Of a stretch of DNA of 55,642 bases, positions 4,051 through 51,365 are shown in pieces (the stretch's first letter is position 1; every line of letters starts with the position of its first letter). A model generated the notes under the pieces. That model did no database searches, was not told the origin of the DNA, and saw nothing but the letters and a program-made list of their open reading frames with translations. Where the stretch lies: contig JAIORS010000134.1 in the NCBI GenBank assembly GCA_021108005.1, positions 1 to 55,642 of the forward strand, in the 5' to 3' direction. Origin of the DNA: Candidatus Aegiribacteria sp. (GTDB lineage: Bacteria > Fermentibacterota > Fermentibacteria > Fermentibacterales > JCC-6). The position numbers were made by a program, and so were the translations under genes.

Positions 4051-6144
4051 TCAGGCTCCCGTTGCTTTGAGTAAGGTATTACTCAATTCTTTTAGACTGA
4101 ATGGTTTTGCTATGGTAGCCGTGAATCCGTAATCAGAATAATTGGCCAATACAGGATTGTTCGAGTAACCGCTTGATACAATCACTTTAACATCAGGATC
4201 AATTTCAAGGAGTTCTGCTATTGCCTCTTCTCCTCCCATTCCTCCCGGAATAGTCAGGTCCATGATAACCGCGTCAAAGGAGTTTTTTGATTCCTTTGCG
4301 GCGGTGTAAACTTCTATTGCTTCCCGCCCGTCTTTAACAGCAAATGCCTCAAACCCCAGGCTGCCCAGCATTTCAACAGCAACATTCCTGACCATTTCTT
4401 CATCATCCATAACCAGTACGTGGCCCTTGCCTGCCTTTGGAGGTTCTTCATCCTTTATTACGGTTTCAGGCTCTTCTCTGGTTGCTGGAATATAGATGAT
4501 AAATGTTGTACCATGTCCCGGTTCTGACTCGACAGTTATCAAGCCATCATGTTTATTAATTATGGAATACGCAGTTGCCAGACCTAATCCGCTCCCTTTG
4601 TCCTTTGTTGTGAAGTATGGGTCAAATATCTTCAGAAGGTTTCCTTCAGGTATACCGACTCCCTGGTCATTTACGGTCACCATTACATACATTCTATCTT
4701 TCAGCGGAAGAACATGTCCTGTTATCTCCGCGATATTCTCTGCTCGAATGGTGAAAAGACCTCCGGCAGGCATTGATTGATGCGCATTGATCGTTAAATT
4801 CTCGATGACCTGTCTGAATTGCACCACGTCGATGTCAACGGCCCAGAGATCATCAGGCTGATTGTATTCAAAGCGGATGTTGGAACCGCTTAGAATAAAA
4901 TTCACAGAATCGGTAATTATCTCCGAAATCGAAGTAGTTGTTCTGAGAGGCAAACCGCCTTTGGAGAATGTGAGAAGCTTCTGAGTCAGTTCCTTCGCTC
5001 TGGTTGCTGCGCAATGAGCATTATGCAGAAACCTCAAAGCCTCACTTTCCGGGATTGAAAACGTCTTTGCCAGGTCAATATTGCCCAGTATTCCGGTTAG
5101 AATGTTGTTGAAATCATGCGCGATTCCACCGGCAAGCACACCAATGGATTCTATTCTCTCAATTCTCAAAAGCTCCATCTCCATCTTCTTACGTTCAGAA
5201 ATATCAAGCGCAACGATCTGAGCCCCGGCCCTTTCCGGATAAGCAAATGGTATGGCTACCATCTCTACATCGATAACGGAGCCATCAACCTTTTTGAACC
5301 TTCTCTCCGTCAGAGGGATTTCATGATGATTTCCCAACATCTCGGTTATTGAGCTTTTCACAGACTCGTAATCGTCCGGATGGATAATTTCCTGAAGTGG
5401 CTTTCCAATGATCTCGTTCGGACTTTCCGCGCCCAGAAGCTTTATCCCGGCATTATTCGCGAAGTTAAGCTTACTTTCATGGAAGATGAAGATGGATTCC
5501 GGTGAAGACTCAACAAGCCTTCGATACCTTCCCTCCGATTTCAGCAAAGCCTTTTCAGCTTCTTTGCGTCTGACAATATCGATAAACACACTCAGAGAGC
5601 TTTCAACAGTACTCCGGTCTTTCTCCTCAAAGGGGAAACGGAATATTTTATCCTCGGTACTATTGCCGATTAAGAGCGCGATTCCTTCATGCCGGTTGAA
5701 AGTCCACAGGATATATGGTGTTTCAATTGCACCGCAGAGAGCTCCAGCAATAGCGTCCGGCTCCGTTGTCGAGTTTACAAACAGAAATTCCGGTGCCCTG
5801 CCGGGTAGCTTGATTACCAGCTTAGTATCCTTTTTTAAACCAAGAGTGTATTCTGAAACGAAACTATCAGTTACCTCATCGTATCGAAAAATCAAGATAC
5901 GATCAGCCGACATGCTGCTCATGATAGCCTGGAAGAAGTGGTTTTCAATACTCTCGATAGAGACATCACTGTTGATCAGATTGTATGTCTTCAGAATAAG
6001 CGAATTGGTGGTTCGTGATCGCCTGACATCTTTTCGAACTTCGGTAAGTTCCTGCTGTAATCTTAATATCCGTTGGCCAAGCTCATCACATTGCCGGCGA
6101 TAGTAATCTCTCTCCGCTTTAATATCATTCATAGTTCTATCCAT
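4051..6144 (-). CDS. Soluble hybrid sensor histidine kinase (coiled coil - GAF-like - PAS - HisKA - HATPase - REC)
   Basis: This 697-residue protein has no membrane segment, so it should be cytoplasmic. In order it shows a coiled coil (about 5-45), a GAF-like region (about 55-200), a PAS domain (about 205-320, RYRRLVESSPESIFIFHE and IHPDDYESV), and a HisKA dimerisation domain with the phospho-acceptor His in GGIAHDFNNILTGILGNI. A HATPase domain follows, with N-box ENLTINAHQ, G1 DQGVGIPEG and G2 GSGLGLA. A C-terminal receiver domain (about 575-695) has the acidic pair in VLVMDDEE, the phospho-acceptor Asp in AVIMDLTIPGG and the Lys in TIAKPFS. Its ATG overlaps the stop of the upstream FIST gene by 8 bases, so the two are translationally coupled. 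The input is probably what FIST binds; the output partner is not visible. Confidence 0.93.
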   Translation of the reverse strand: MDRTMNDIKAERDYYRRQCDELGQRILRLQQELTEVRKDVRRSRTTNSLILKTYNLINSDVSIESIENHFFQAIMSSMSADRILIFRYDEVTDSFVSEYTLGLKKDTKLVIKLPGRAPEFLFVNSTTEPDAIAGALCGAIETPYILWTFNRHEGIALLIGNSTEDKIFRFPFEEKDRSTVESSLSVFIDIVRRKEAEKALLKSEGRYRRLVESSPESIFIFHESKLNFANNAGIKLLGAESPNEIIGKPLQEIIHPDDYESVKSSITEMLGNHHEIPLTERRFKKVDGSVIDVEMVAIPFAYPERAGAQIVALDISERKKMEMELLRIERIESIGVLAGGIAHDFNNILTGILGNIDLAKTFSIPESEALRFLHNAHCAATRAKELTQKLLTFSKGGLPLRTTTSISEIITDSVNFILSGSNIRFEYNQPDDLWAVDIDVVQFRQVIENLTINAHQSMPAGGLFTIRAENIAEITGHVLPLKDRMYVMVTVNDQGVGIPEGNLLKIFDPYFTTKDKGSGLGLATAYSIINKHDGLITVESEPGHGTTFIIYIPATREEPETVIKDEEPPKAGKGHVLVMDDEEMVRNVAVEMLGSLGFEAFAVKDGREAIEVYTAAKESKNSFDAVIMDLTIPGGMGGEEAIAELLEIDPDVKVIVSSGYSNNPVLANYSDYGFTATIAKPFSLKELSNTLLKATGA

Positions 6145-7345
6145 TTGTGAATATTGTCAAAACTCCTGTCCAGTCCAGCGGGCGGCTGCGGCCAAGGAGC
6201 GGTGCGATCTCCACACCTGAGTAGAAGCCCAGGAATGGCATACTTCCACCAACTGTCTTCCTGACGACGTCAGCCTCCTCGGTCTCAGAACCGCTGAAGC
6301 TGGAAGCTCTACCCGCGCAGTCAATATAGAGGGCGAACTTCGCTTTTCCCAGGTCAACGGTTTCGAGCAGTTCTGTGGTTCCCTTATTAACGGATTCAAC
6401 CATCAACTGATTGTCCCGCGACATTACCTGAACAATATCTCCCTGCTGGAAATCCGCCTCGAAGATAGTTACAGAACCCTCTTCAGGGTTTGAATCAATA
6501 ATAAGGCGATTTACATACATCTGTTCATTGAAGGGGGAGTACGGTTCTCCATACTTCTTACCGAGAGTAACTATGAAAGGGATTTTTGAGTTGCATATAT
6601 CTTCAGGGTCAATCCCCAGCATCTCGCTGAAAACATCCGTTGCGGGACGGCCATCAAGTTCGTAGAGGACAGGGCCATCGATCTTTGTTATTTCCTTAAA
6701 TGAGCTGATAGGTTTGCATCCATGCATTATGGTAGTATGTGGAGTCAATTCCCCCGAAAGGATTATCCCGATAACTGAATGCTTGACTACTCCGCGGCCA
6801 TCGAAAACGAAACTGGGTGAAAATGTGAAATCTCCAACCAGGCCCGAACCGATTATATTCAGAGTATCTTTCTTAAGGCCAGAATATACACCGTCCATCA
6901 ACGTGCTGCCGGTATAGAGTACAGGGGGCGGTGTTGATCGAAGGTTGGTGTAAAAAATGAGTACTGTGTCGCCTTCGTTCGTCAATTCATCCAGAGCGAG
7001 ACCGATCTCTTTTCCAGCCTTGAACTCACCCGCTTTTAAATTGTTATTCACCACTAAGCCGGGTGCAGTGAAATCGGAAGTGAATGCGGCAAGGCCGCAT
7101 TCGTAGCCCGTGTATCCAAGTGAGTCGTTCGTAATGATTCCAGCCGTTGCCCCGCCGTAAACCGCTACGTCACCAAGCTCGGATCTTATTCCCGTGAGAA
7201 CACTGTCAGGTTCATGCCTGCCGCCGCAGAACGCCAGCACCCACGAGACGGATTCCTTGTTTTTGAACTGGTTCTTCGCCAGGCCGGCGGCTTCCCTGCC
7301 GGCCTTTTCCGAATCCGTATCGCTGCTGATACCTACATAAGCCAT
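6137..7345 (-). CDS. FIST N/FIST C sensory domain protein
   Basis: This 402-residue soluble protein has the layout of FIST_N followed by FIST_C: an N-terminal part with AFCGGRHEPDSVLTGIRSEL and VYGGATAGI, and a C-terminal part with PFLGFYSGVEIAP near the end. FIST domains have been proposed to bind small ligands, amino acids among them, and are often fused or linked to kinases. Here the protein has no output domain of its own, but its stop codon lies inside the first codons of the kinase gene. It probably supplies the sensory input of that kinase. AAGGAG lies a few bases upstream of the ATG. The gene begins 112 bases after the stop of the B12-type radical SAM gene on the same strand, so it may be part of that transcript. 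Confidence 0.9.
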   Translation of the reverse strand: MAYVGISSDTDSEKAGREAAGLAKNQFKNKESVSWVLAFCGGRHEPDSVLTGIRSELGDVAVYGGATAGIITNDSLGYTGYECGLAAFTSDFTAPGLVVNNNLKAGEFKAGKEIGLALDELTNEGDTVLIFYTNLRSTPPPVLYTGSTLMDGVYSGLKKDTLNIIGSGLVGDFTFSPSFVFDGRGVVKHSVIGIILSGELTPHTTIMHGCKPISSFKEITKIDGPVLYELDGRPATDVFSEMLGIDPEDICNSKIPFIVTLGKKYGEPYSPFNEQMYVNRLIIDSNPEEGSVTIFEADFQQGDIVQVMSRDNQLMVESVNKGTTELLETVDLGKAKFALYIDCAGRASSFSGSETEEADVVRKTVGGSMPFLGFYSGVEIAPLLGRSRPLDWTGVLTIFTNG

Positions 7346-7457
7346 TTTCTCCTTCTTCCAGATTAATATTTCTCCTAGATGAACTCAGGTAAACCCCTAC
7401 TCAGTAAATCGTTTAGTAATCAATCGAATCAGTATCCTCCAGATAAATGCCATCCTT

Positions 7458-8936
7458 TCAAAATCCCTTGCGGTATTCCTTCTCCAGGTTCTTCAATCTG
7501 TACCGATTATATCCGGATATTCTATATATTAAATCTCTTCGCATAATGTTAGTCCAGAGAGGCTCCTTCAGCCTGAGAACCGAGTACAACCTCTTAAGAG
7601 TTCGCGCCAGAAGGGTACTCTCCGAATTATCCTGAAGGTTGATATAGTTCGAGTGGTTGATTACTTCCCTGTTTATCATGTAAAGCATTTCTTTTATACT
7701 GATTTCCTTCGGTTGAAGCCAGACCGGCCTCAATAGATCCGAATTAACAGAAATTTGACCGGTTGTAAGAGCATAGCCGTAAAGTGGCGCACCAGGTAAC
7801 ACTCTTATACCGCTTGTAATGAAAACAAGATCCCGTCTGCCGATGTTCTTATCGATGAACCTGAAGGTCTCTTTGATAGTGGACTCGTTCTCACCCGGCC
7901 CACCGAAGAGGAAATACCAGACCACCGGTATACCGCTATCGTTTAAAACCCTGGCGGCTAGTTCAACACTTTCCACTGTGAAATTCTTACCCAGTGTTTT
8001 CAGCATTTTCTCAGAACCTGATTCGGGCGTACAGGACACTTCTATGAAATTTGCCTCCTTCATCAGTCCCGCCAGCTCCGCGGTAACGGCTGACGGATTG
8101 ATCCCCATGGTATTGAAAGAGGTCCTGATCTTTCTCCTGATAATCTCCCGGCAGATGGCAATGGCATGGTCCAGCGGAATGTTGAATGTGGAATCGGTGA
8201 ATTCTATCACATTGGGCTTACAGTTCGCTACAATATCCTCGATCTCGTCAACAATTAATGCAGGATCTCTCAGTCTGTAGCTGCATCCCTCGATTTCGTT
8301 GTAAACACAGTAGCTGCATTTCAGGGCGCAGCCACGTTTAGTCTGAATGGAGTACGGAGCGTAATCAAGGCTGTACTTTTTCCAGTCGACCCACCTGTAC
8401 ATCCGAGGCAAAGCCAGGTCATCGAGGTTCTCAATTCTCCGGACGGGATTCCTTACAATCCTTTCCTTTTTTCTGTACAGAAGCCCGTCGATAGAAGAGA
8501 TATCCGATCCGGATTCAACCCTGCGCGCGAATTCCACAAAAGCGTTCTCGCCTTCCCCGCATATGGCGTAATCCACACCGAGATAATCCATGATCCGTTC
8601 TGGCATGATGCTTACAGCTGAGCCTCCTATAACGAGTGGCATTGACGCAGCATTTCGTGCAGGATCAACGATATTCTTCTTGACATCCTCCAGGTAAAAG
8701 CAGGGGGACTGCTGGTCAACATTGTCAATATTCCTGATCGATATTCCCACCAGATCCGGCGCGAACTGATTGATCCTGTCTGCTATCTCGGATGGCGGAT
8801 TGCCGGAAAAAAGTATGTCCAGCAGTTGAACTTCAAAGCCTTCCCGTTCAAGGCTTGAAGCAACATAGCAGGCTCCGAGAGGAGGAACCGGCCAGGGATG
8901 TCTCTCTCTATTTGAAGAGATCAGAAGTATCTTCAC
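7458..8936 (-). CDS. B12-binding-type radical SAM protein
   Basis: This 492-residue protein begins with a Rossmann-like domain of the kind found in cobalamin-binding radical SAM enzymes (MKILLISSN, then PPLGACYVASSLEREGF, PDLVGISI, and IGGSAVS; about 1-135). The classical DxHxxG cobalamin motif is not evident, as in many class B relatives. The iron-sulfur motif CxxxCxxC is in GCALKCSYCVYNE, at about residues 200-215. Later blocks include EFTDSTFN and FLFGGPGE, expected of the radical SAM barrel. Its start overlaps the stop of the upstream radical SAM-acyltransferase gene by four bases (ATGA), so the two products should act together. The substrate cannot be read from the sequence. Enzymes of this type carry out methylation, ring formation or oxidation on unactivated carbon. 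Confidence 0.88.
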   Translation of the reverse strand: MKILLISSNRERHPWPVPPLGACYVASSLEREGFEVQLLDILFSGNPPSEIADRINQFAPDLVGISIRNIDNVDQQSPCFYLEDVKKNIVDPARNAASMPLVIGGSAVSIMPERIMDYLGVDYAICGEGENAFVEFARRVESGSDISSIDGLLYRKKERIVRNPVRRIENLDDLALPRMYRWVDWKKYSLDYAPYSIQTKRGCALKCSYCVYNEIEGCSYRLRDPALIVDEIEDIVANCKPNVIEFTDSTFNIPLDHAIAICREIIRRKIRTSFNTMGINPSAVTAELAGLMKEANFIEVSCTPESGSEKMLKTLGKNFTVESVELAARVLNDSGIPVVWYFLFGGPGENESTIKETFRFIDKNIGRRDLVFITSGIRVLPGAPLYGYALTTGQISVNSDLLRPVWLQPKEISIKEMLYMINREVINHSNYINLQDNSESTLLARTLKRLYSVLRLKEPLWTNIMRRDLIYRISGYNRYRLKNLEKEYRKGF

Positions 8937-10924
8937 GGTTGGTCCATTCTCATTTCCGGGTAGTAACTTGAAAGTGTCTGTTTTTCGTGCGCTGCCATAC
9001 CCTCGAGGAGATTCGGCTTTATTCCGCTTAAACTGTTAATATACTCAATGCCGTGGGGGTTTCGCCGGTCATTCAGTTCACGCATTGTCTGCTCTTTGAT
9101 AATCTGATGCTCACCACCATAGAAATACTGATACAGTTGCGGATCGTTTATTCGTACCAGTTCCCTGCCTGTTATTAGATTGAGCCTCATAGGAACAGCT
9201 GGCGCTCCGTTCACTTTTTCGAACGGTTTTGCATCTCCGATCTTTTCAAAATAGAATTTCCTCTGATAATAGGTACAATGACGCGGATGTATCATCATGC
9301 AGAAATCGGTACAGCCCAAAAGGTCATGACCTAGAATAAACGCCTTTCTGAACAGAGACAGCAGAATCCCCCATCTTTCTCCATTCGAGAGGTCCGCATC
9401 TACAGCAAGAGCAGACAGTTCACAAACAAGAGAACCAGTTTCCCGGATTCTTGCGATCTCTTCACTGAAAAGCTCGTCGATTGGAAGCTTTCCATTAGTA
9501 TCTCTTACAAGAGTAAGTGTGCCGCAGACTTTCCCATCGTTTTTTACTATCAGTAAATGACTTGAAGGTAGAATATCGTGAAAACCAATTCTCATCGAAG
9601 ATGAATTTGATTGTTGAAGGCCGGTTTGGAAATACGTTCTATATACTAAATTGAATGCATCCTTCATCTCATCAATATTCCTGGTAAGTCTGGAATCCGC
9701 GAATTCACTGTTTTTATTTCCATCTTTGGAATCGATACTTTCACCTTCGCAATCATTTTCAATGATCATGTCGTCCACTGAAGCAGCGATATCTCCTATT
9801 GCAGTTGTACTATCACCTGAGTTTGAACATCTGTTACGAATCCGTGCAATCGACAGGCGCAGCCTTGCCAGAAAGGAGAAAAGCACCGCTTGAAAGGATC
9901 CTTTTAACATCTGTGGTGACTGGTTACAGCCGGCGCATACTTCTCCGGGTAAATACTGCTCTTTGTATTGCATAAGAGTATCTATCGATTCATACAGAAT
10001 ATTGCCCAGCGGATTTCGCACTGATTGATCGTTACAGCAGATAGAACTTCCATCTGCGGCAATAAAGAAATTGGCGTTCCAGAGACATGGGAATCTGAAA
10101 CACCTGACAAGGTCTCCTATCTCAGATGTACTATGGAAGAACCGCTTAAGCACAAGCTGCATTCTGATTTTCACTTCATTGACGGTCTGCCCGTTGTAGC
10201 GTCTGAAGAAATCGCTGTACATCTCTACTGCCGCAACGGAGTTGCGCAGCAAGCCGGAACGGTTACTTGTCGCGGGGAAAAGAACAAGTTCTATCTCTCT
10301 AAGTTCAACCCTTCGCGCGATTTCAGTTAAACTGTTAATCGTTTCGGGAAAATCACGTCTAATGATCTCAGTCTCTGGGGGGGAGATGTGCAAATAGAGT
10401 CTGGAAAGATATCCGCCCGCGCGGAGAGCCATCGCCTTTTCAATACCCGGCAGCACTCCGGACAGCAGGGCTTCTCCCTGCCCGCTGTCACCCTTCATTA
10501 TCAACCCGTACGATTCGGGATTGCTGGTCGGGAAAGAGATGATCAACGAAATGCAATTGTCTGCGAAGGGAGCCAATATCTCTGATTTATTTAACGATGA
10601 ACCGTTCGTGACAACGGAAATTTCCGGTGGAGGTACGATGGATGCATCCCATTCCCTGAGCATCTCGCCGAACATCCTTAACCTGTCAGCAAACTCCGGA
10701 TGCAGTGTCGCCTCGCCATCACCGGAATTAGCTACATAACGCACATATATACCGGATCCGGCAGCTTCAAGTATTCGCTCGATAAGGGTTCTTGTTACAA
10801 TATACGGCTGAAATTCTTTCGGGCCTCTGTAGTTCGTTTTATTAATACCGCACAACCTGCAGGAGTAGTTGCATATTCCATGAACAAGGCTGTTATTGAT
10901 CGATATGGGCCGACGCGTTCGCAT
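8933..10924 (-). CDS. Radical SAM/SPASM-like protein fused to a FeeM-like N-acyl amino acid synthase domain
   Basis: This 663-residue protein has two parts. The N-terminal half is a radical SAM domain with C18, C22 and C25 (ICNYSCRLCG) and a SPASM-like auxiliary cluster region at about 270-330 (CFRFPC, SICCND, GEVCAGC). The C-terminal part, about 430-620, resembles the GNAT-like N-acyl amino acid synthase FeeM and PEP-CTERM-associated acyltransferases. It reads AFNLVYRTYFQTG, then HLLIVKNDGKVCGTLTLV, LVCELSALAV, MIHPRHCTYYQRKFYFEKIG and NGAPAVPMRLNL. FeeM-type enzymes transfer an acyl chain from acyl carrier protein to an amino acid or related amine. A low-complexity acidic linker (about 370-420) separates the parts. 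The fusion suggests modification and acylation of one substrate. Domain calls are good; the substrate is unknown. Confidence 0.87.
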   Translation of the reverse strand: MRTRRPISINNSLVHGICNYSCRLCGINKTNYRGPKEFQPYIVTRTLIERILEAAGSGIYVRYVANSGDGEATLHPEFADRLRMFGEMLREWDASIVPPPEISVVTNGSSLNKSEILAPFADNCISLIISFPTSNPESYGLIMKGDSGQGEALLSGVLPGIEKAMALRAGGYLSRLYLHISPPETEIIRRDFPETINSLTEIARRVELREIELVLFPATSNRSGLLRNSVAAVEMYSDFFRRYNGQTVNEVKIRMQLVLKRFFHSTSEIGDLVRCFRFPCLWNANFFIAADGSSICCNDQSVRNPLGNILYESIDTLMQYKEQYLPGEVCAGCNQSPQMLKGSFQAVLFSFLARLRLSIARIRNRCSNSGDSTTAIGDIAASVDDMIIENDCEGESIDSKDGNKNSEFADSRLTRNIDEMKDAFNLVYRTYFQTGLQQSNSSSMRIGFHDILPSSHLLIVKNDGKVCGTLTLVRDTNGKLPIDELFSEEIARIRETGSLVCELSALAVDADLSNGERWGILLSLFRKAFILGHDLLGCTDFCMMIHPRHCTYYQRKFYFEKIGDAKPFEKVNGAPAVPMRLNLITGRELVRINDPQLYQYFYGGEHQIIKEQTMRELNDRRNPHGIEYINSLSGIKPNLLEGMAAHEKQTLSSYYPEMRMDQP

Positions 10925-11324
10925 ATATTGTTATCCTGTGAATCGAGATATGTATTTATACATAGACAGTCAACATAATAAAGCAAATATTCCATTCCGC
11001 TATTCAACCCCTAAACAACAGATTTCGTACCCCTAGAATTCAATACCTTTATTATACGAATAAATTGCGTACAGACAAATCACCTGTACAAAACGAACTT
11101 CGCGAATCCTCCTGGTAACACGTTCTGATAACTGAACGAAGAAAACGTGATTCTCAAACAGATATCCGGATAGTATGTATCATGCACCTATATTTGTATT
11201 TATTGCTATCGTGGAGTTGGATGATACGTCGATTATATTCGAGGTTGACTGTACACTGCGTCTGGAAGTAGTGTAACAAAGTGATAAATGCATATTGAAC
11301 ATATAAACCGGAAGAACAAGCAAA
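10925..11324. other. 400-base intergenic region with inverted repeats between divergent genes
   Basis: This spacer separates the radical SAM-FeeM gene (minus) from a membrane histidine kinase gene (plus). It holds a 6-bp inverted repeat with a 9-base gap (GTACAG at 11069, CTGTAC at 11084) and a looser nested one near 11119-11150 (CACGTTC ... GAAC ... AACGTG). It also holds two copies of CCCCTA about 22 bases apart near 11010-11036. These could be operators. I see no gene or structured RNA. Confidence 0.4.
11245..11274 (+). promoter_or_regulatory. Candidate sigma-70-type promoter of the membrane histidine kinase
   Basis: TTGACT (11245-11250) and TAGTGT (11269-11274) are separated by 18 bases, giving a leader of about 45 bases before the ATG at 11325. 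The same TAGTGT -10 element recurs with a consensus TTGACA in front of the gene at 37627. Confidence 0.4.
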
Positions 11325-14084
11325 ATGAAAGCGGAGAAGAAATACACTGTTTATAGAAGTCTTGTTTCAATTTCCTTCGGTCTGCTTGGGTTTGCGGCAA
11401 ATTTCGTTACTATAGATTTTTCTTTCCCTCCATATACCGCGACGGTTCTGATAGGTCTTTTGTTTCCGTTACTGATAACGCTTGCCTGGGGATGGAAATA
11501 CGGTTTGCTGTCCGCTTTGGCCGGTGGTTGTCAAACGATGTGGTGGCTGTGGGGTCCTGCCAACGGTTATGCCACATTGTTCGTTGTGCCGCCATTTACA
11601 ATCTGGATAGTATGGCATGGTTATTTTGCGAACCTTCGCAGAAAACAGAAGAAATGTAAATGGTGGCTGAGCATGTACGCTGTTGAATTTCCATTTCGAA
11701 TACTGAACACAATTAATCTCTATACATTATCAAGATGGGCTATTACATGGAATCCACCTGCCTGGGGGTTGGCTCCGGCTTCATCAAACGTAATCCCGAT
11801 GAGCTTTTCACACTTCGTAGTAATAAAGCAGTTCGTTGTAGCTTACATAATTCTGCTGTTGGCGGACGTACTATTGAACCTTGGTATCGTAAGAAAATTC
11901 CTCAAATTAAGAAAAAGCATTTCATACAGGAAAACAGCTCATATCATAGGCTTTGCGCTTCTGATCGGCGCTTTCTTCTGGATTGTTGACAGCTTTCTCG
12001 GATACTATACATTTCATTCCGGCAGTTCTTTTCTCGATTTGTTTGCTCTGAGAATTCCATCTTACGTACTGTACATGCGAGCCGCGCTTATTCTTGCCTG
12101 TCTGACAGGGGGAGTAGTAGCATCAGGGTTCCTCCGCAAACAGCACGAAAACGAAGTCATTCTGCGGGAAAGCGAGGAAAAATTAAGGTTAATCAGTGAT
12201 TCCGCAGAAGACTCGATAATAATGATGAACAATGATGGAAATGTCTGTCATTGGAACAAAGCGTCAGAGGAAATGTTCGGTTATAAAGCGGAAGACATTA
12301 TTGGAAAGAATCTTCACGCGACTCTTATGCCGCCACGTTTTATTGAAGTCTTTCGAAAGGGTTTCAGGAAATTCGCGGATTCTGGCAAAGGGCCTGCTAT
12401 CGGGAAAACAATGGAAATGGTGGCCTTGAAGAAGGACGGGACAGAATTTCCGGTAGAGCTGTCAATCTCTTCCGTGAGAATAAAGGATAAATGGGGCGCG
12501 GTGAGCATTGTAAGAGATATCACCGAGCGAAGGAAAGCAACGGAAGCGCTTCGCGAGAGTGAGAAACGCTTCCGGCAGGTATCCGAATGCGCGGAGGAAT
12601 GGATATGGGAAGTTGATGCAAATGCATTGTATACCTACGCAAGCCCTGTAGTGGAGAAGCTGATTGGATACAAACCTGAGGAAATCGTGGGAAAGAAGCA
12701 TTCGTACGATCTATTCCACACTGATGATATTGAGCCGCTGAAAAAAGCAACCCTTGAAATATTTTCTGAAAAGAAACCACTTTTCAGATTTCCGAATCGT
12801 AACGTTCATAAAAACGGAAACATCGTATGGCTCCTGACAAGCGGCCTTCCAATCCTTGACGAAGAAGGAAACCTGCTAGGTTATCGAGGCACGGACATCG
12901 ACATCACCGAACAAAAGAAATTGGAAAGACAGAAGGAGATACTGCAGAAAAAACTATTCAAGACGGAGAAACTGGAAACCATAGGTACTCTGGCAGGCGG
13001 AATCGCTCACGATTTCAATAATATCCTTACTCCAATTATCGGTTATACCGACATGGCTCTGTCGAACCTGCCATCTGATAATCCTGTCCGCACAGATCTT
13101 GAAGAGATCCTTAATGGAGCCAACCGCGCTAAAGATCTTGTTAATCAGATACTGACATTCAGCCAGCAGATGGAAAAAGAAAAAGAACCGCTTCGACTGC
13201 ACCTGATTGTAAATGAAGCGTTAAAACTGATGCGTCCATCCATCCCGGCAACGATTGAAATCAAGCGGAATATCGACGAATCCTGTCCGGTGATTCTTGC
13301 CGACCCGATACAGATGCATGAGGTTGTTGTGAATTTATGTACTAACGCTTACCAGGCGATGGAAAGGGAAGGAGGAGTAATTACTATTGAATTGAAACCT
13401 GCATATGTTGATAAAACCATTGCAGATTCTTATCCTAACCTCAAGCAGGGGAAATACATTCGTCTGACTGTCAGCGATACGGGTCACGGAATAATCGACG
13501 ATATACTGGGTCATATTTTCGAACCATTTTTCACAACTAAAGGCTATAGCAAGGGCAGTGGTATGGGCCTTTCGATAGTACATGGCATTGTACAGAGCCA
13601 TGACGGAGAAATCATTGTATACAGCGAACCGGGCAAAGGCACGGCATTTCATATATATCTCCCTGTTACAGAAGAGGCTGAAAAACCAGTTAAGGTAAAA
13701 GACGATTCTCTTCATTACGGACATGAGGCGATTCTTATCGTTGATGATGAGGAAGCTGTTACAAGGATGCTGGAAAAAATTCTAAGGCAGCTTGGCTACG
13801 AAGTTGATGCTTTTAATACTCCTGCTGACGCACTGGAGTCATTTCGCAAAGCTGAAAACAAATACGATATTGTACTCACCGATTTAACCATGCCAGGAAT
13901 GACCGGACTGGATCTGGCAGAAGAAATAAGAAAACTTCATTCGGAGATTCCTATAGTACTTATGACAGGTTACGGTCTGCAAAATCATGAAGATATCCGG
14001 CGGAAGAATGTCAGTAAGATAGTTGGGAAACCAATTGATATTCGGGAATTGACTTCAACTATCCGAGACATACTGAGAAGCTGA
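11325..14084 (+). CDS. Membrane hybrid histidine kinase (multi-TM sensor - PAS - PAS - HisKA - HATPase - REC)
   Basis: This 919-residue protein starts with about 275 residues holding six to eight hydrophobic segments, an integral-membrane sensor of a kind I cannot name. PAS 1 spans about 285-405 (DSIIMMNNDGNVCHWNKASE) and PAS 2 about 410-535 (WIWEVDANALYTYASP). HisKA follows, with the phospho-acceptor His in GGIAHDFNNILTPIIGY. The HATPase has N-box NLCTNAYQAM, G1 DTGHGI and G2 GSGMGLS. A receiver domain closes the protein at about 795-915, with DDEE, Asp in VLTDLTMPGM and Lys in VGKPID. The kinase core is close in type to that of the 4051-6144 gene, so the two may be paralogues. The ribosome binding site (GGAAGA) is weak. 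The gene is divergent from the radical SAM-FeeM gene. Confidence 0.93.
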   Translation: MKAEKKYTVYRSLVSISFGLLGFAANFVTIDFSFPPYTATVLIGLLFPLLITLAWGWKYGLLSALAGGCQTMWWLWGPANGYATLFVVPPFTIWIVWHGYFANLRRKQKKCKWWLSMYAVEFPFRILNTINLYTLSRWAITWNPPAWGLAPASSNVIPMSFSHFVVIKQFVVAYIILLLADVLLNLGIVRKFLKLRKSISYRKTAHIIGFALLIGAFFWIVDSFLGYYTFHSGSSFLDLFALRIPSYVLYMRAALILACLTGGVVASGFLRKQHENEVILRESEEKLRLISDSAEDSIIMMNNDGNVCHWNKASEEMFGYKAEDIIGKNLHATLMPPRFIEVFRKGFRKFADSGKGPAIGKTMEMVALKKDGTEFPVELSISSVRIKDKWGAVSIVRDITERRKATEALRESEKRFRQVSECAEEWIWEVDANALYTYASPVVEKLIGYKPEEIVGKKHSYDLFHTDDIEPLKKATLEIFSEKKPLFRFPNRNVHKNGNIVWLLTSGLPILDEEGNLLGYRGTDIDITEQKKLERQKEILQKKLFKTEKLETIGTLAGGIAHDFNNILTPIIGYTDMALSNLPSDNPVRTDLEEILNGANRAKDLVNQILTFSQQMEKEKEPLRLHLIVNEALKLMRPSIPATIEIKRNIDESCPVILADPIQMHEVVVNLCTNAYQAMEREGGVITIELKPAYVDKTIADSYPNLKQGKYIRLTVSDTGHGIIDDILGHIFEPFFTTKGYSKGSGMGLSIVHGIVQSHDGEIIVYSEPGKGTAFHIYLPVTEEAEKPVKVKDDSLHYGHEAILIVDDEEAVTRMLEKILRQLGYEVDAFNTPADALESFRKAENKYDIVLTDLTMPGMTGLDLAEEIRKLHSEIPIVLMTGYGLQNHEDIRRKNVSKIVGKPIDIRELTSTIRDILRS

Positions 14085-48778: not shown

Positions 48779-49040
48779 CTTTCACTCCTTTTTTGTTTAA
48801 TGGATCGTAACGAACCCTGTCAAAAGGCTTATTTCTTTATAATACTACTATACTAAATCGTATCCGTTTCTGCATCTTTTTTATCAACAGAATAATTGTA
48901 ATACTATTTAGAACCTTTACCGTCAATGAATGATGCTAATAAAACAGCCTGTTGAACAGGGTAATTGCTATGAAGAATCCGGAAATACTGGATTGATTAT
49001 CAGAAACCACTTCACCATTATCAGACAAGGAGACCATACT

Positions 49041-51365
49041 TTGAAAAATGTAGCATTGAATACAAGTCGATGGAGTAGATGTACTTCGTCCGGAGTCCTT
49101 CTGCAGATGTTTGTTCTTCTTGCAGTGACATCGATAGCCGCTGCCTATTCAGGGAGTCTGGTGGTAAGTCTCCATTCCGGAGAGTATGAAATAGTTCAAA
49201 ATCTCGATGGTCACAGAATAGAGATGGAAGGCTTCAGCCAGCTGATGACCCCCGGAAAGCCCATGCTTCCCATGAAACGATTCCAGATTCTGCTTCCCCC
49301 GGGCGCCAGAGCGGTATCTGTGGACGTGATCGGTTCCGGTGCAGATGAATTACCCTCTTATTACGACATTCAGCCATTCGAGGGAGTTCTCCCTCTTCTC
49401 AACACACCGTATCTGGAAGAAGAGCTTGTCAGGCTTGATGAAGAGTGGCATGCAAACCACGAAATCGTTTACCTCAGTGACCAACCGTATCCTGACAGGA
49501 TCGCCTGGCTATCCGGAGCAGGCACCCTTCGCAAATACTCTTATGCATCGATAGCTTTCTGCCCGATCACCTATCATCCGATTTCCCGGCGGCTTATTTA
49601 CCATGATCGTGTTGATGTAGCCATTAACTACACGCTGCCTGACGAGGGAGATGCCGAGGCGGAGCATATAGAGCGACTCCTTGCAGACTGCGTTGCCGAT
49701 GAAAGGGCAGAGCGGCTTTTTATCAACTACCGGACATTCGCCGGACAATACACTTCCAGCAGAATTGAGGCGCAATTTGACGATCTGTACGATTACGTTA
49801 TCGTAACCACCAGCGACCTGATCGGCTCTGTTACATCATCCGCTTTTCCCGCATGGAAGGCGGAACTCGGGTACAGTCTGAAAACCGTTCTTACAACCGA
49901 CCCTTTGATAGCTGATCAGCCGGGTGTGGATCTGGAGGAGCAGATAAGGAACTTCCTCAGGGAGTACTACGGGCTATGGGGAATTGAATATGTACTCTTT
50001 GTAGGTGACTATGCCACAGTCCCGATGCGTATATGCTATCCTGACTCGTCTTTTCACGTATATGATCCGTCCAATCCAAATCTTTTCGCGCCAGGTACGC
50101 CCACCGACCAGTACTACACAGACTTGTCCTATCCTGATTCGCTGTCCTGGGATCTGGACGGAGATGGATTTGTCGGTGAGTACAACCAGGATCTTCCCGA
50201 CTTTCTTCCGGAGATCTATGTTGGAAGGATTCCGGTGAATGACACCGGTCGTATTACGTACACCCTTAATAAAACCGTTACTTTTGAGCAGGATGCCGGG
50301 AGCTGGAAAAAGAATGTTCTCCATCCGACCACCATTCTGTTTTTTGAGAATCAGAATTTCAGCGGATATCCGTTTATTGACGGAGCTTCTGTGATAGACT
50401 CCATCGAAACCGGTCTTATGGACGGCTGGAATATCACACACATGAGTGAACAGTTTGGTATCGTGACATCTCTGTTCGATTGGCCAGCTGTGAGTGAGGG
50501 TGTATTTATCAATCATTGGCGCAACGGCCAGTTTGCGGTGGTCAACTGGTCAGGACATGGCTGGTCTAACAGTGTCTCTCGGTCGGTTTGGGAATGGGAT
50601 GACGGTGATGGTGTTCCCGAATCGAGTAATGGAGAGTTTTATAACCTCTCGTTGCTTAACACTGTTACTTCAACCAATCTGGATGATGATTATCCTTCGG
50701 TTGTATTTGCGATCTCGTGCAATGTGGGTTATCCTGAACCAAACGCATGGGGGAACCTGGGCATTGACCTTGCAACTAAACCGGGGTCTGGCTCAGCGGT
50801 AGGCATGGTGAGCGCTTCGAGACCTTCGGCTATCTCGTCAGACTGGAAAAATAACCCCGGCGGAGCGGAGCAGATATGCTTCGATTTCAACCGTTACCTT
50901 ATAAGTGAAGGCGAGCATGTGGGAGTTGCCCTGTACGACGGCAAGTACGATGCTACGACCGTTTACGGCTGGTCACATATCTACGAGTACGGGAATCTAT
51001 ACAATGTCAACCTTTTTGGTGATCCATCTCTGGAGGTTGCAGGCTACCCGACCGGTATTGAGGGGGGGGAAACAGCTCCGGGAATGATGCCCCCTTCTCT
51101 TTTCCCTGCATATCCCAATCCGTTCACGTCATCGACAGCATTACGTCTTACCCTGCCGACTTCAAGCAAGGTGCTTGCTGTGGTTTACGATATAAGCGGC
51201 AGGCAGGTTGCATCGCTTATGGAAGAAATGCGTCCCGCCGGAGAGCTGCTGCTCTTCTGGGATGGCAGAGACAACTCCGGAGAATCGCTTGGGCAGGGTA
51301 TCTATTTTGCAGTTATCACAGTTGGTAATCATCAGGCAGTTCGGAGAATGATGCTGTTAAGGTGA
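49041..51365 (+). CDS. Gingipain-like C25 peptidase with propeptide and sorting domain
   Basis: A protein of 774 residues from the chosen TTG at 49041, which has AAGGAG eight bases upstream and gives a clean signal peptide (LLQMFVLLAVTSIAAA). A propeptide of the C25 type follows (PGKPMLPMKRFQILLPPGA). The catalytic domain has His506 in NWSGHGWSN and Cys560 in VFAISCNVGY, the C25 dyad. The C-terminal 85 residues are a sorting domain: PAYPNPFTSSTALRL, then VVYDISGRQVASL and GIYFAVITVG. In Bacteroidetes, C25 enzymes are Arg/Lys proteases (gingipains) or the PorU sortase. Since this one carries its own sorting tail, I favour a cargo protease. Specificity is not predictable. Confidence 0.9.
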   Translation: MKNVALNTSRWSRCTSSGVLLQMFVLLAVTSIAAAYSGSLVVSLHSGEYEIVQNLDGHRIEMEGFSQLMTPGKPMLPMKRFQILLPPGARAVSVDVIGSGADELPSYYDIQPFEGVLPLLNTPYLEEELVRLDEEWHANHEIVYLSDQPYPDRIAWLSGAGTLRKYSYASIAFCPITYHPISRRLIYHDRVDVAINYTLPDEGDAEAEHIERLLADCVADERAERLFINYRTFAGQYTSSRIEAQFDDLYDYVIVTTSDLIGSVTSSAFPAWKAELGYSLKTVLTTDPLIADQPGVDLEEQIRNFLREYYGLWGIEYVLFVGDYATVPMRICYPDSSFHVYDPSNPNLFAPGTPTDQYYTDLSYPDSLSWDLDGDGFVGEYNQDLPDFLPEIYVGRIPVNDTGRITYTLNKTVTFEQDAGSWKKNVLHPTTILFFENQNFSGYPFIDGASVIDSIETGLMDGWNITHMSEQFGIVTSLFDWPAVSEGVFINHWRNGQFAVVNWSGHGWSNSVSRSVWEWDDGDGVPESSNGEFYNLSLLNTVTSTNLDDDYPSVVFAISCNVGYPEPNAWGNLGIDLATKPGSGSAVGMVSASRPSAISSDWKNNPGGAEQICFDFNRYLISEGEHVGVALYDGKYDATTVYGWSHIYEYGNLYNVNLFGDPSLEVAGYPTGIEGGETAPGMMPPSLFPAYPNPFTSSTALRLTLPTSSKVLAVVYDISGRQVASLMEEMRPAGELLLFWDGRDNSGESLGQGIYFAVITVGNHQAVRRMMLLR

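Follow-up and report, generated by a model that had tools for sequence, protein, structure and literature searches.

The window analysed here is a 55,642-nt stretch of DNA (contig JAIORS010000134.1, assembly GCA_021108005.1) from Candidatus Aegiribacteria sp., a member of the bacterial phylum Candidatus Fermentibacterota. On its minus strand, at positions 8933–10924, lies an open reading frame (ORF) that begins with ATG, is uninterrupted throughout its 663 amino acids and encodes a radical S-adenosylmethionine (radical SAM, rSAM) domain followed by an N-acyltransferase domain of the FeeM family. A reading of the bare sequence (the original prediction) had proposed this fusion, together with its pairing through a 4-nt overlap with a second, B12-type radical SAM gene, and both proved real. 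What it overlooked was that these two genes are followed by genes for a FIST sensor protein and a hybrid histidine kinase, which are part of the same conserved unit. We tentatively interpret the operon as encoding the synthase of a small-molecule signal together with its receptor, a reading whose chances we put a little short of even.

The N-terminal half of the fusion protein contains a radical SAM core (residues 16–143, positions 10496–10879) that exceeds the Pfam cut-off (PF04055, 33.3 bits against 29.5, E 6.7e-8). The three cysteines of the CX3CX2C motif of the SAM [4Fe–4S] cluster (C18, C22 and C25; 10850–10873) are unchanged in all 13 aligned rows that cover the motif. Five further cysteines (C280, C296, C297, C330 and C333; 9926–10087), invariant in 14 of 14 aligned rows, make up a putative SPASM-like auxiliary cluster module. 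The SPASM assignment of the original prediction holds in part: the Pfam model (PF13186) is listed for none of 13 rSAM halves at E values up to 10, the HMMER filters dropping most weak matches, but four of the cysteines (C280, C297, C330 and C333) align with those of a related-genome protein that does match the model (L028), in a region where the structure model is poor. Judged from this alignment, ‘SPASM-like’ seems a fair label. A variable linker (about residues 366–420; 9665–9829), at which the gene is split in some relatives, leads into the FeeM domain.

FeeM enzymes move an acyl chain from acyl carrier protein (ACP) onto an amino acid. The FeeM domain of the fusion (residues 422–582; 9179–9661) matches the whole of the Pfam profile (PF21926, positions 1–158 of 158) with 138 bits against a cut-off of 27 (E 2.7e-40), whereas the LuxI model (PF00765) reaches 11.8 bits, under its cut-off of 24. 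A putative catalytic glutamate, E502, is unchanged in 14 of 14 rows and aligns with a glutamate of the FeeM structure 2g0b (near residue 96 of that chain by visual count), which we take to be the catalytic base of the FeeM and LuxI enzymes. The chain ends in a C-terminal extension of predicted helices (residues 583–663; 8936–9178) that is aligned throughout the family alignment.

Structural comparisons point in the same direction, with the reservation that the two models used are of middling confidence (mean predicted local distance difference test, pLDDT, 53.5 and 59.7, and below 50 in the SPASM-like part). In the AlphaFold model (mean pLDDT 53.5), the FeeM region scores between 47 and 84 by blocks of ten residues. 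The top Foldseek match is 2g0b (E 2.5e-7), followed by the radical SAM enzymes DesII and ChlB, and VIA-align superposes residues 451–596 of the model on 2g0b_A with a Z score of 12.9 and a root-mean-square deviation (rmsd) of 2.9 Å over 142 residues, the N-terminal half matching NifB, SuiB and MoaA; radical SAM proteins make up most of the VIA-align comparison with the full model, which hardly covers other folds. At the level of sequence, a family profile run against the Protein Data Bank (PDB) finds a single convincing chain, again 2g0b (E 8.4e-9), and the rSAM half alone yields four weak matches, one to a radical SAM protein (E 0.35) and three to unrelated proteins. The GCN5-related N-acetyltransferase (GNAT) fold on which the original prediction had staked its case is thus present in the model.

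A radical SAM domain followed by a GNAT domain is also the architecture of Elp3, and an Elp3-like coupling can be envisaged in which the GNAT domain cleaves an acyl thioester and delivers the acyl group to the radical SAM centre to build a C–C bond, in place of N-acylation. Foldseek aligns 8pty_C over both domains (644 columns, E 7.4e-4), and in Elp3 acetate is reported to reach the radical SAM site by a tunnel (PMC13315578). However, the Elp3 matches have rmsd values of 26–27 Å and reflect only the presence of two domains in the same order, Pfam lists the FeeM family and no acetyltransferase family for the fusion protein, and none of its three NCBIfam matches at E values up to 1 is an Elp3 model. 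In addition, the two halves are encoded by separate ORFs in five of 15 genomes (see below), which argues against an obligate internal tunnel. We regard this alternative as very improbable.

The stop codon of the fusion gene (TGA) lies within a GTGA overlap whose GTG is the start codon of the B12-type radical SAM gene (7458–8936, minus strand; 492 amino acids, with B12-binding and Radical_SAM domains, PF02310 and PF04055). The next gene on this strand (6137–7345) encodes a 402-amino acid protein with FIST_N (PF08495, E 1.1e-23) and FIST_C (PF10442, E 2e-21) domains, and overlaps by 8 nt the last gene (4051–6144), which encodes a 697-amino acid hybrid histidine kinase with PAS, HisKA, HATPase and C-terminal receiver domains. 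No terminator-like site was found in the one gap, between the B12-rSAM and FIST genes (7346–7457), and the four genes probably form one transcript. A promoter-like site upstream (TTGTCT-16-TATAAT, 11051–11078, minus strand) is a weak consensus match, there being 17 such sites in the window where 11.6 are expected. In all 15 genomes, FIST is the gene after the B12-rSAM gene or what remains of it; in 13 the kinase gene comes next, the contigs of the other two ending earlier; kinase matches below 45% identity are not shown in this comparison, and in G017 (genomes are given G numbers) the unit lies on two contigs. Since the genes upstream vary (TPR/transglycosylase, PPC protein and others), the conserved unit consists of four genes. 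Next to the operon in the window is a divergent PAS-PAS hybrid kinase gene (11325–14084), which is absent together with the enzymes in G016. It was not found beside the operon at 13 other loci in 11 genomes, some with little upstream sequence, where only the operon’s own kinase was matched, and for this reason we exclude it from the unit.

The upstream region also bears on whether the substrate could be a ribosomally synthesised and post-translationally modified peptide (RiPP), to be altered by the SPASM-like radical SAM domain and acylated by FeeM. Peptide-modifying SuiB is among the fold matches of the rSAM half, as is ChlB, in keeping with such a lipidated peptide. Against this, inspection by eye of 350–600 nt upstream of the operon in nine genomes revealed no recurring precursor ORF of at least 25 amino acids, the rest of the genome not having been searched; short overlapping ORFs are common only to one close pair (G024 and G015, 85% identical DNA), and at seven loci the fusion gene starts a mere 120–291 nt past the preceding gene. 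A peptide substrate therefore seems improbable, if less so than the Elp3-like scheme.

The B12-rSAM protein scores best, among named NCBIfam families, against TIGR04072 (314.9 bits, under the cut-off of 360), and its best solved relative is the tryptophan methyltransferase TsrM (6wte_A, E 9.3e-37), on which basis the enzyme might perhaps carry out a C-methylation. Its gene is cut short in G009 and G021, and in G032 the frame is broken close to the end, yet in all three genomes the fusion, FIST and kinase genes remain open; its reaction is thus best regarded as a tailoring step. The FIST protein scores far under the cut-off for the nitric oxide sensor NosP (NF041558, 29.2 bits against 450), contains a single fully invariant histidine (H208, 10 rows) and has no match among PDB sequences.

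To establish how widely the unit is distributed, we searched 42 genomes of the phylum. The fusion protein is encoded, as two halves in some cases, in 15 of these, the window’s own included (a raw count of 17 includes weak local matches in G038 and G040), and in eight of the 24 genomes with at least 90% completeness and at most 5% contamination. Four more (G027, G030, G031 and G034) match the radical SAM core only. The closest named relatives are metagenome-assembled genomes (MAGs) of Candidatus Sabulitectum, Aegiribacteria and other Fermentibacteraceae or Fermentibacteria, and a search of genome contigs, which covered close relatives, returned 12 related loci at 52–84% identity. The Pfam FeeM model identifies the same 15 genomes and no others. 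A close B12-rSAM orthologue (at least 59% identity, remnants included) is found in these same 15, most phylum genomes also holding other B12-rSAMs at about 27–37% identity, and a FIST orthologue is found in these 15 plus G016 (weak homologues in G025:C547 and G039, at 25–29%, are not counted). Co-occurrence with the fusion protein is strong (Fisher, 1.6e-10 for FIST and 1e-11 for B12-rSAM), though uncorrected for kinship. Four genomes of the same genus and of good completeness (G007, G010, G013 and G014) lack both the fusion protein and FIST, which suggests that the genes of the unit are acquired or lost jointly.

A link to exosortase systems, implied by the PEP-CTERM label that the original prediction had attached to the FeeM part, was also considered and rejected. 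No exosortase (PF09721) exceeds the cut-off in any of the 42 genomes, PEP-CTERM proteins not having been searched; there are five weak matches in the phylum (E 5.5e-4 to 8.3e-4), and the window’s own genome has none at E 1e-3.

The two domains share a single reading frame in 10 of the 15 genomes (nine with a complete gene, plus G018 with a partial one; its two differing partial copies were excluded from the trees) and occupy neighbouring ORFs in the other five (G011, G015, G023, G024 and G028). In four of these five, the second ORF could begin at an ATGA or TTGA start–stop overlap, with G015 having in addition an earlier in-frame ATG. In G028, no in-frame start occurs before a GTG located 116 nt past the stop, and the split there could reflect a broken, damaged or misassembled gene. 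G024 presents a third arrangement: its FeeM ORF continues into the B12-rSAM gene to give a 766-amino acid protein with FeeM, B12-binding and Radical_SAM domains, a joint seen in one MAG in which a single-base error is possible. The split state requires at least two changes on the rSAM tree (14 genomes) and three on the FeeM tree (G019 carries one extra codon after the stop in these trees, and in alignment A1 its row lacks the first methionine).

FeeM thus occurs on its own as well as in fusions with either of the two radical enzymes. Fusion of one activity to either of two others is good ‘Rosetta stone’ evidence that all of them serve one pathway and, together with the identical set of 15 genomes, bears out the single short pathway that had been proposed. 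At the same time, the split and differently fused states indicate that the covalent link is optional, so that the suggestion that one polypeptide both acylates and modifies its substrate fits the majority of genomes without being essential.

Two other explanations of these arrangements were discarded. All five split genomes share a −1 relation between the ORFs, as in a programmed −1 frameshift, but translational coupling, or a broken or misassembled gene in G028, explains this. An artefact of assembly or annotation was likewise rejected as the origin of the fusion, given the ten genes, one of them partial, that are open in a single frame, and given the sequence constraint. G024 also contains a second partial copy of the operon (G024:C100, L057), about 85% identical to the window, which is either a second copy or a contaminating strain.

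Both halves of the fusion are under purifying selection, which, with its presence in 15 of 42 genomes, makes the fusion more than a chance event. In three close-relative pairs, omega is 0.11–0.16 for the rSAM half and 0.31–0.35 for the FeeM half, with constraint within this single chain weaker on the FeeM side. One fusion gene (G021, L006 4989–6947) is a mosaic, with codons 1–250 being 90% identical to G019, and codons 251–372 and the FeeM part 89% and 78% identical, respectively, to G022, reflecting either recombination within the gene or a chimeric assembly.

Outside the phylum, the search turned up no rSAM-FeeM protein in any of 343 sampled genomes (385 searched in all), at most three first-look candidates having been scored per genome; 33 match the radical SAM core only and one (G271) matches FeeM only. 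The outside survey, extended by 6 and 79 further genomes from two of the same phyla, is a sample of the bacteria. The Pfam FeeM model has matches in 47 of the 385 genomes, 32 of them over the cut-off, comprising the 15 operon bearers and 17 outside genomes. Among ten proteins from the latter (one per genome) examined for domains, one carries a PilZ domain and four carry a class-V aminotransferase (see below), and none joins a radical SAM domain to FeeM. A plasmid search likewise returned no rSAM-FeeM protein: of 16 matching records, none extends over 80% of the query, and the match is confined to the FeeM part in the 15 that were listed.

Further pairings of FeeM emerged from these searches. 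FeeM had been thought normally to stand alone, a view that does not survive them: on a Nitratidesulfovibrio plasmid, a FeeM match lies within a 989-amino acid ThiF-annotated protein in an exosortase/PEP-CTERM cluster, and FeeM-like domains are fused to PilZ, a cyclic di-GMP-binding domain, in G257 (L097 1300–2736; 43 bits) and to class-V aminotransferases in four other outside genomes (L098, L099, L101 and L102; GNAT part 33–39 bits). In G086 (L110 5430–9463) and G433 (L112), representing two genera within a family from another phylum, a FeeM gene is followed by genes for an AMP-binding ligase and a B12-rSAM, the proteins being 65–76% identical between the two genomes. Their B12-rSAM is 20% identical to that of the window (E 3.7e-8), and they are the only two of 82 genomes of their phylum with FeeM at E 1e-15. 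FeeM and a B12 radical enzyme have apparently come together here a second time, independently. Separately, two different FeeM genes stand in tandem in G271 (L091 9720–11616) and G390 (L111); one of them shares, by eye, the C-terminal extension of the window protein, and tblastn with the rSAM, B12-rSAM and FIST sequences of the window found no match in the tandem-FeeM stretch examined.

Within the phylum, the most informative exception is G016 (73% complete), which shares synteny with the window to either side of the operon (83–87% identical DNA). Its locus contains the FIST and kinase genes alone, the enzymes and the divergent PAS-kinase gene being missing, and the rest of the assembly yielded neither rSAM-FeeM nor FeeM nor a close B12-rSAM. 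In the expected place, 28 nt still match (93%) the end of the window’s PAS-kinase gene, and for this reason loss of the enzymes looks like a deletion. FIST and the kinase are nevertheless both under purifying selection in G016 (omega 0.12 and 0.18). ‘Solo’ receptors are known in quorum sensing, and G016 may by analogy be a case of a sensor kept without its synthase.

Taken together, these results suggest that the FIST–kinase pair senses the product of the enzymes, a small N-acyl molecule modified by radical chemistry. The domains, the conserved active-site residues, the order and co-occurrence of the genes and the purifying selection are observed, whereas the substrates, the sequence of reactions, the product, its binding by FIST and any role between cells are inferred. 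Using acyl-ACP as donor, the FeeM domain, with its LuxI-like GNAT fold and conserved glutamate, would acylate the amino group of an amino acid or a similar amine. Radical chemistry at the N-terminal radical SAM/SPASM-like domain would alter either the amine or the acyl chain, and a further step would fall to the B12-type enzyme. The N-acyl product would then bind FIST, which would in turn control the hybrid histidine kinase in the cytoplasm, in the way described for the FIST/NosP partners of VpsS and NosK. Given a layout like that of known FIST–kinase pairs, an adjacent acyl synthase and, in one species, a sensor that has survived loss of the synthase, product sensing by FIST is the simplest interpretation. 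A more specific version is a self-contained circuit resembling quorum sensing. In it, a synthase of LuxI fold, physically linked to a radical SAM enzyme, would produce the autoinducer, a radical SAM-modified N-acyl amino acid, and FIST together with the hybrid kinase would detect it intracellularly; species that have lost the synthase would retain the receiver and may eavesdrop. We consider this version rather doubtful, if well worth entertaining.

Precedents for a FIST protein acting with a kinase come from VpsV, encoded upstream of the quorum-sensing kinase VpsS and proposed to be its signal-sensing partner (PMC4398556). The co-cistronic partner of VpsS has since been described as the heme-containing nitric oxide sensor NosP (PMC6769237), and from these two accounts we infer that VpsV and this NosP are one protein. 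NosP also acts on a second kinase, NosK (PMC12570481).

Several observations weigh against a signal and its dedicated receptor. The FeeM half evolves with an omega two to three times that of the rSAM half, the value for FIST being 0.12–0.18, a pattern not readily matched to a co-evolving signal and receptor. Damage to the B12-rSAM gene in three genomes means that this enzyme is not indispensable. The kinase possesses its own PAS domain, unlike the sensor-less partners of NosP, and has no output domain beyond the receiver. NosP-type FIST proteins detect nitric oxide by way of heme, and the FIST protein here, with its one invariant histidine (H208), may do likewise instead of binding the product, although it scores far under the NosP cut-off. 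Finally, the joint presence of the genes was counted among related MAGs.

An alternative is a different pathway, yielding an aminolipid or another structural or defensive N-acyl lipid, with FIST and the kinase merely regulating it in response to another cue such as nitric oxide, redox state or an amino acid. FeeM is grouped with aminolipid N-acyltransferases (PMC11631085), the best named family of the B12-rSAM protein (TIGR04072) is labelled ‘lipid biosynthesis’, and NosP-type FIST–kinase pairs sense nitric oxide (PMC12570481). However, there is no O-acyltransferase or other lipid gene among the four conserved genes, the low NosP score of FIST speaks against a nitric oxide cue, and presence in only 15 of 42 genomes would be odd for a structural lipid. 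Such a lipid pathway strikes us as unlikely, while being the most plausible of the competing schemes. If instead the operon does encode a signal synthase and its receptor, radical SAM chemistry would be tied to acyl signal synthesis, FIST domains would gain a second kind of ligand beyond the heme and nitric oxide of the papers cited, and this uncultured phylum would have a candidate cell–cell signal. As only four genes are involved, synthase, product and receptor could be tested directly in E. coli.

Elsewhere in the window, the ORF at 48930–51365 encodes a Peptidase_C25 protein with a Propeptide_C25 and an FlgD-like C-terminal domain, and three other scanned window proteins end in FlgD_ig or Por_Secre_tail domains. 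In a Candidatus Sabulitectum genome, a gene for an AbiEi antitoxin-like protein (L002 10458–11252) lies about 1.5 kb downstream of the operon.

The literature searched, which excludes most subscription papers, yielded no published rSAM-FeeM protein, the papers listed being judged mainly by title and abstract. As a domain combination, however, the fusion is a variant on a known theme, as both FeeM fusions and an rSAM-GNAT fusion (Elp3) already exist; the interest lies in the operon as a compact candidate circuit for signalling by radical chemistry. With the FeeM N-acyl amino acid synthases (PF21926, 2g0b), the window protein shares the whole profile, the conserved glutamate and the GNAT/LuxI-like fold, and it differs from them in being fused to, or encoded beside, radical SAM enzymes, in its C-terminal helical extension and in the lack of an exosortase over the cut-off in its phylum. 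The FeeM-ThiF proteins of Nitratidesulfovibrio likewise hold FeeM within a larger protein, but with ThiF as partner, FeeM at the N-terminus and an exosortase/PEP-CTERM cluster around them. NF011425, a model named only ‘hypothetical protein’ to which the window protein is a weak match (62.8 bits), presumably represents, with PRK14852, this FeeM-ThiF architecture. For the second gene, the best named match is the ‘rSAM_ladder_B12’ family TIGR04072 (315 bits), below its curated cut-off. Elp3 shares the order of radical SAM and GNAT domains in one chain, whereas the window protein has a FeeM-type GNAT, a CX3CX2C motif with a SPASM-like module and separable halves, and tRNA is not implied.

By a published DALI search, the closest structural homologues of the mycobacterial acyltransferase TyzA are FeeM and the acyl-homoserine lactone synthase BjaI (PMC10404671). 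On the sensor side, the FIST/NosP–kinase pairs (the VpsS partner and NosP–NosK) resemble the operon in that FIST is encoded with a kinase, VpsS being a cytoplasmic hybrid kinase. They differ from it in that here the pair is encoded with the synthase of an acyl compound, the kinase has its own PAS domain and FIST falls far under the NosP cut-off. In the LuxI/LuxR acyl-homoserine lactone circuits, an acyl synthase is genetically linked with a sensor. The operon has in common with these circuits an acyl synthase of LuxI-like fold linked with a sensor, and departs from them in scoring under the LuxI model cut-off, in its radical enzymes and in a sensor that comprises FIST and a kinase instead of LuxR.

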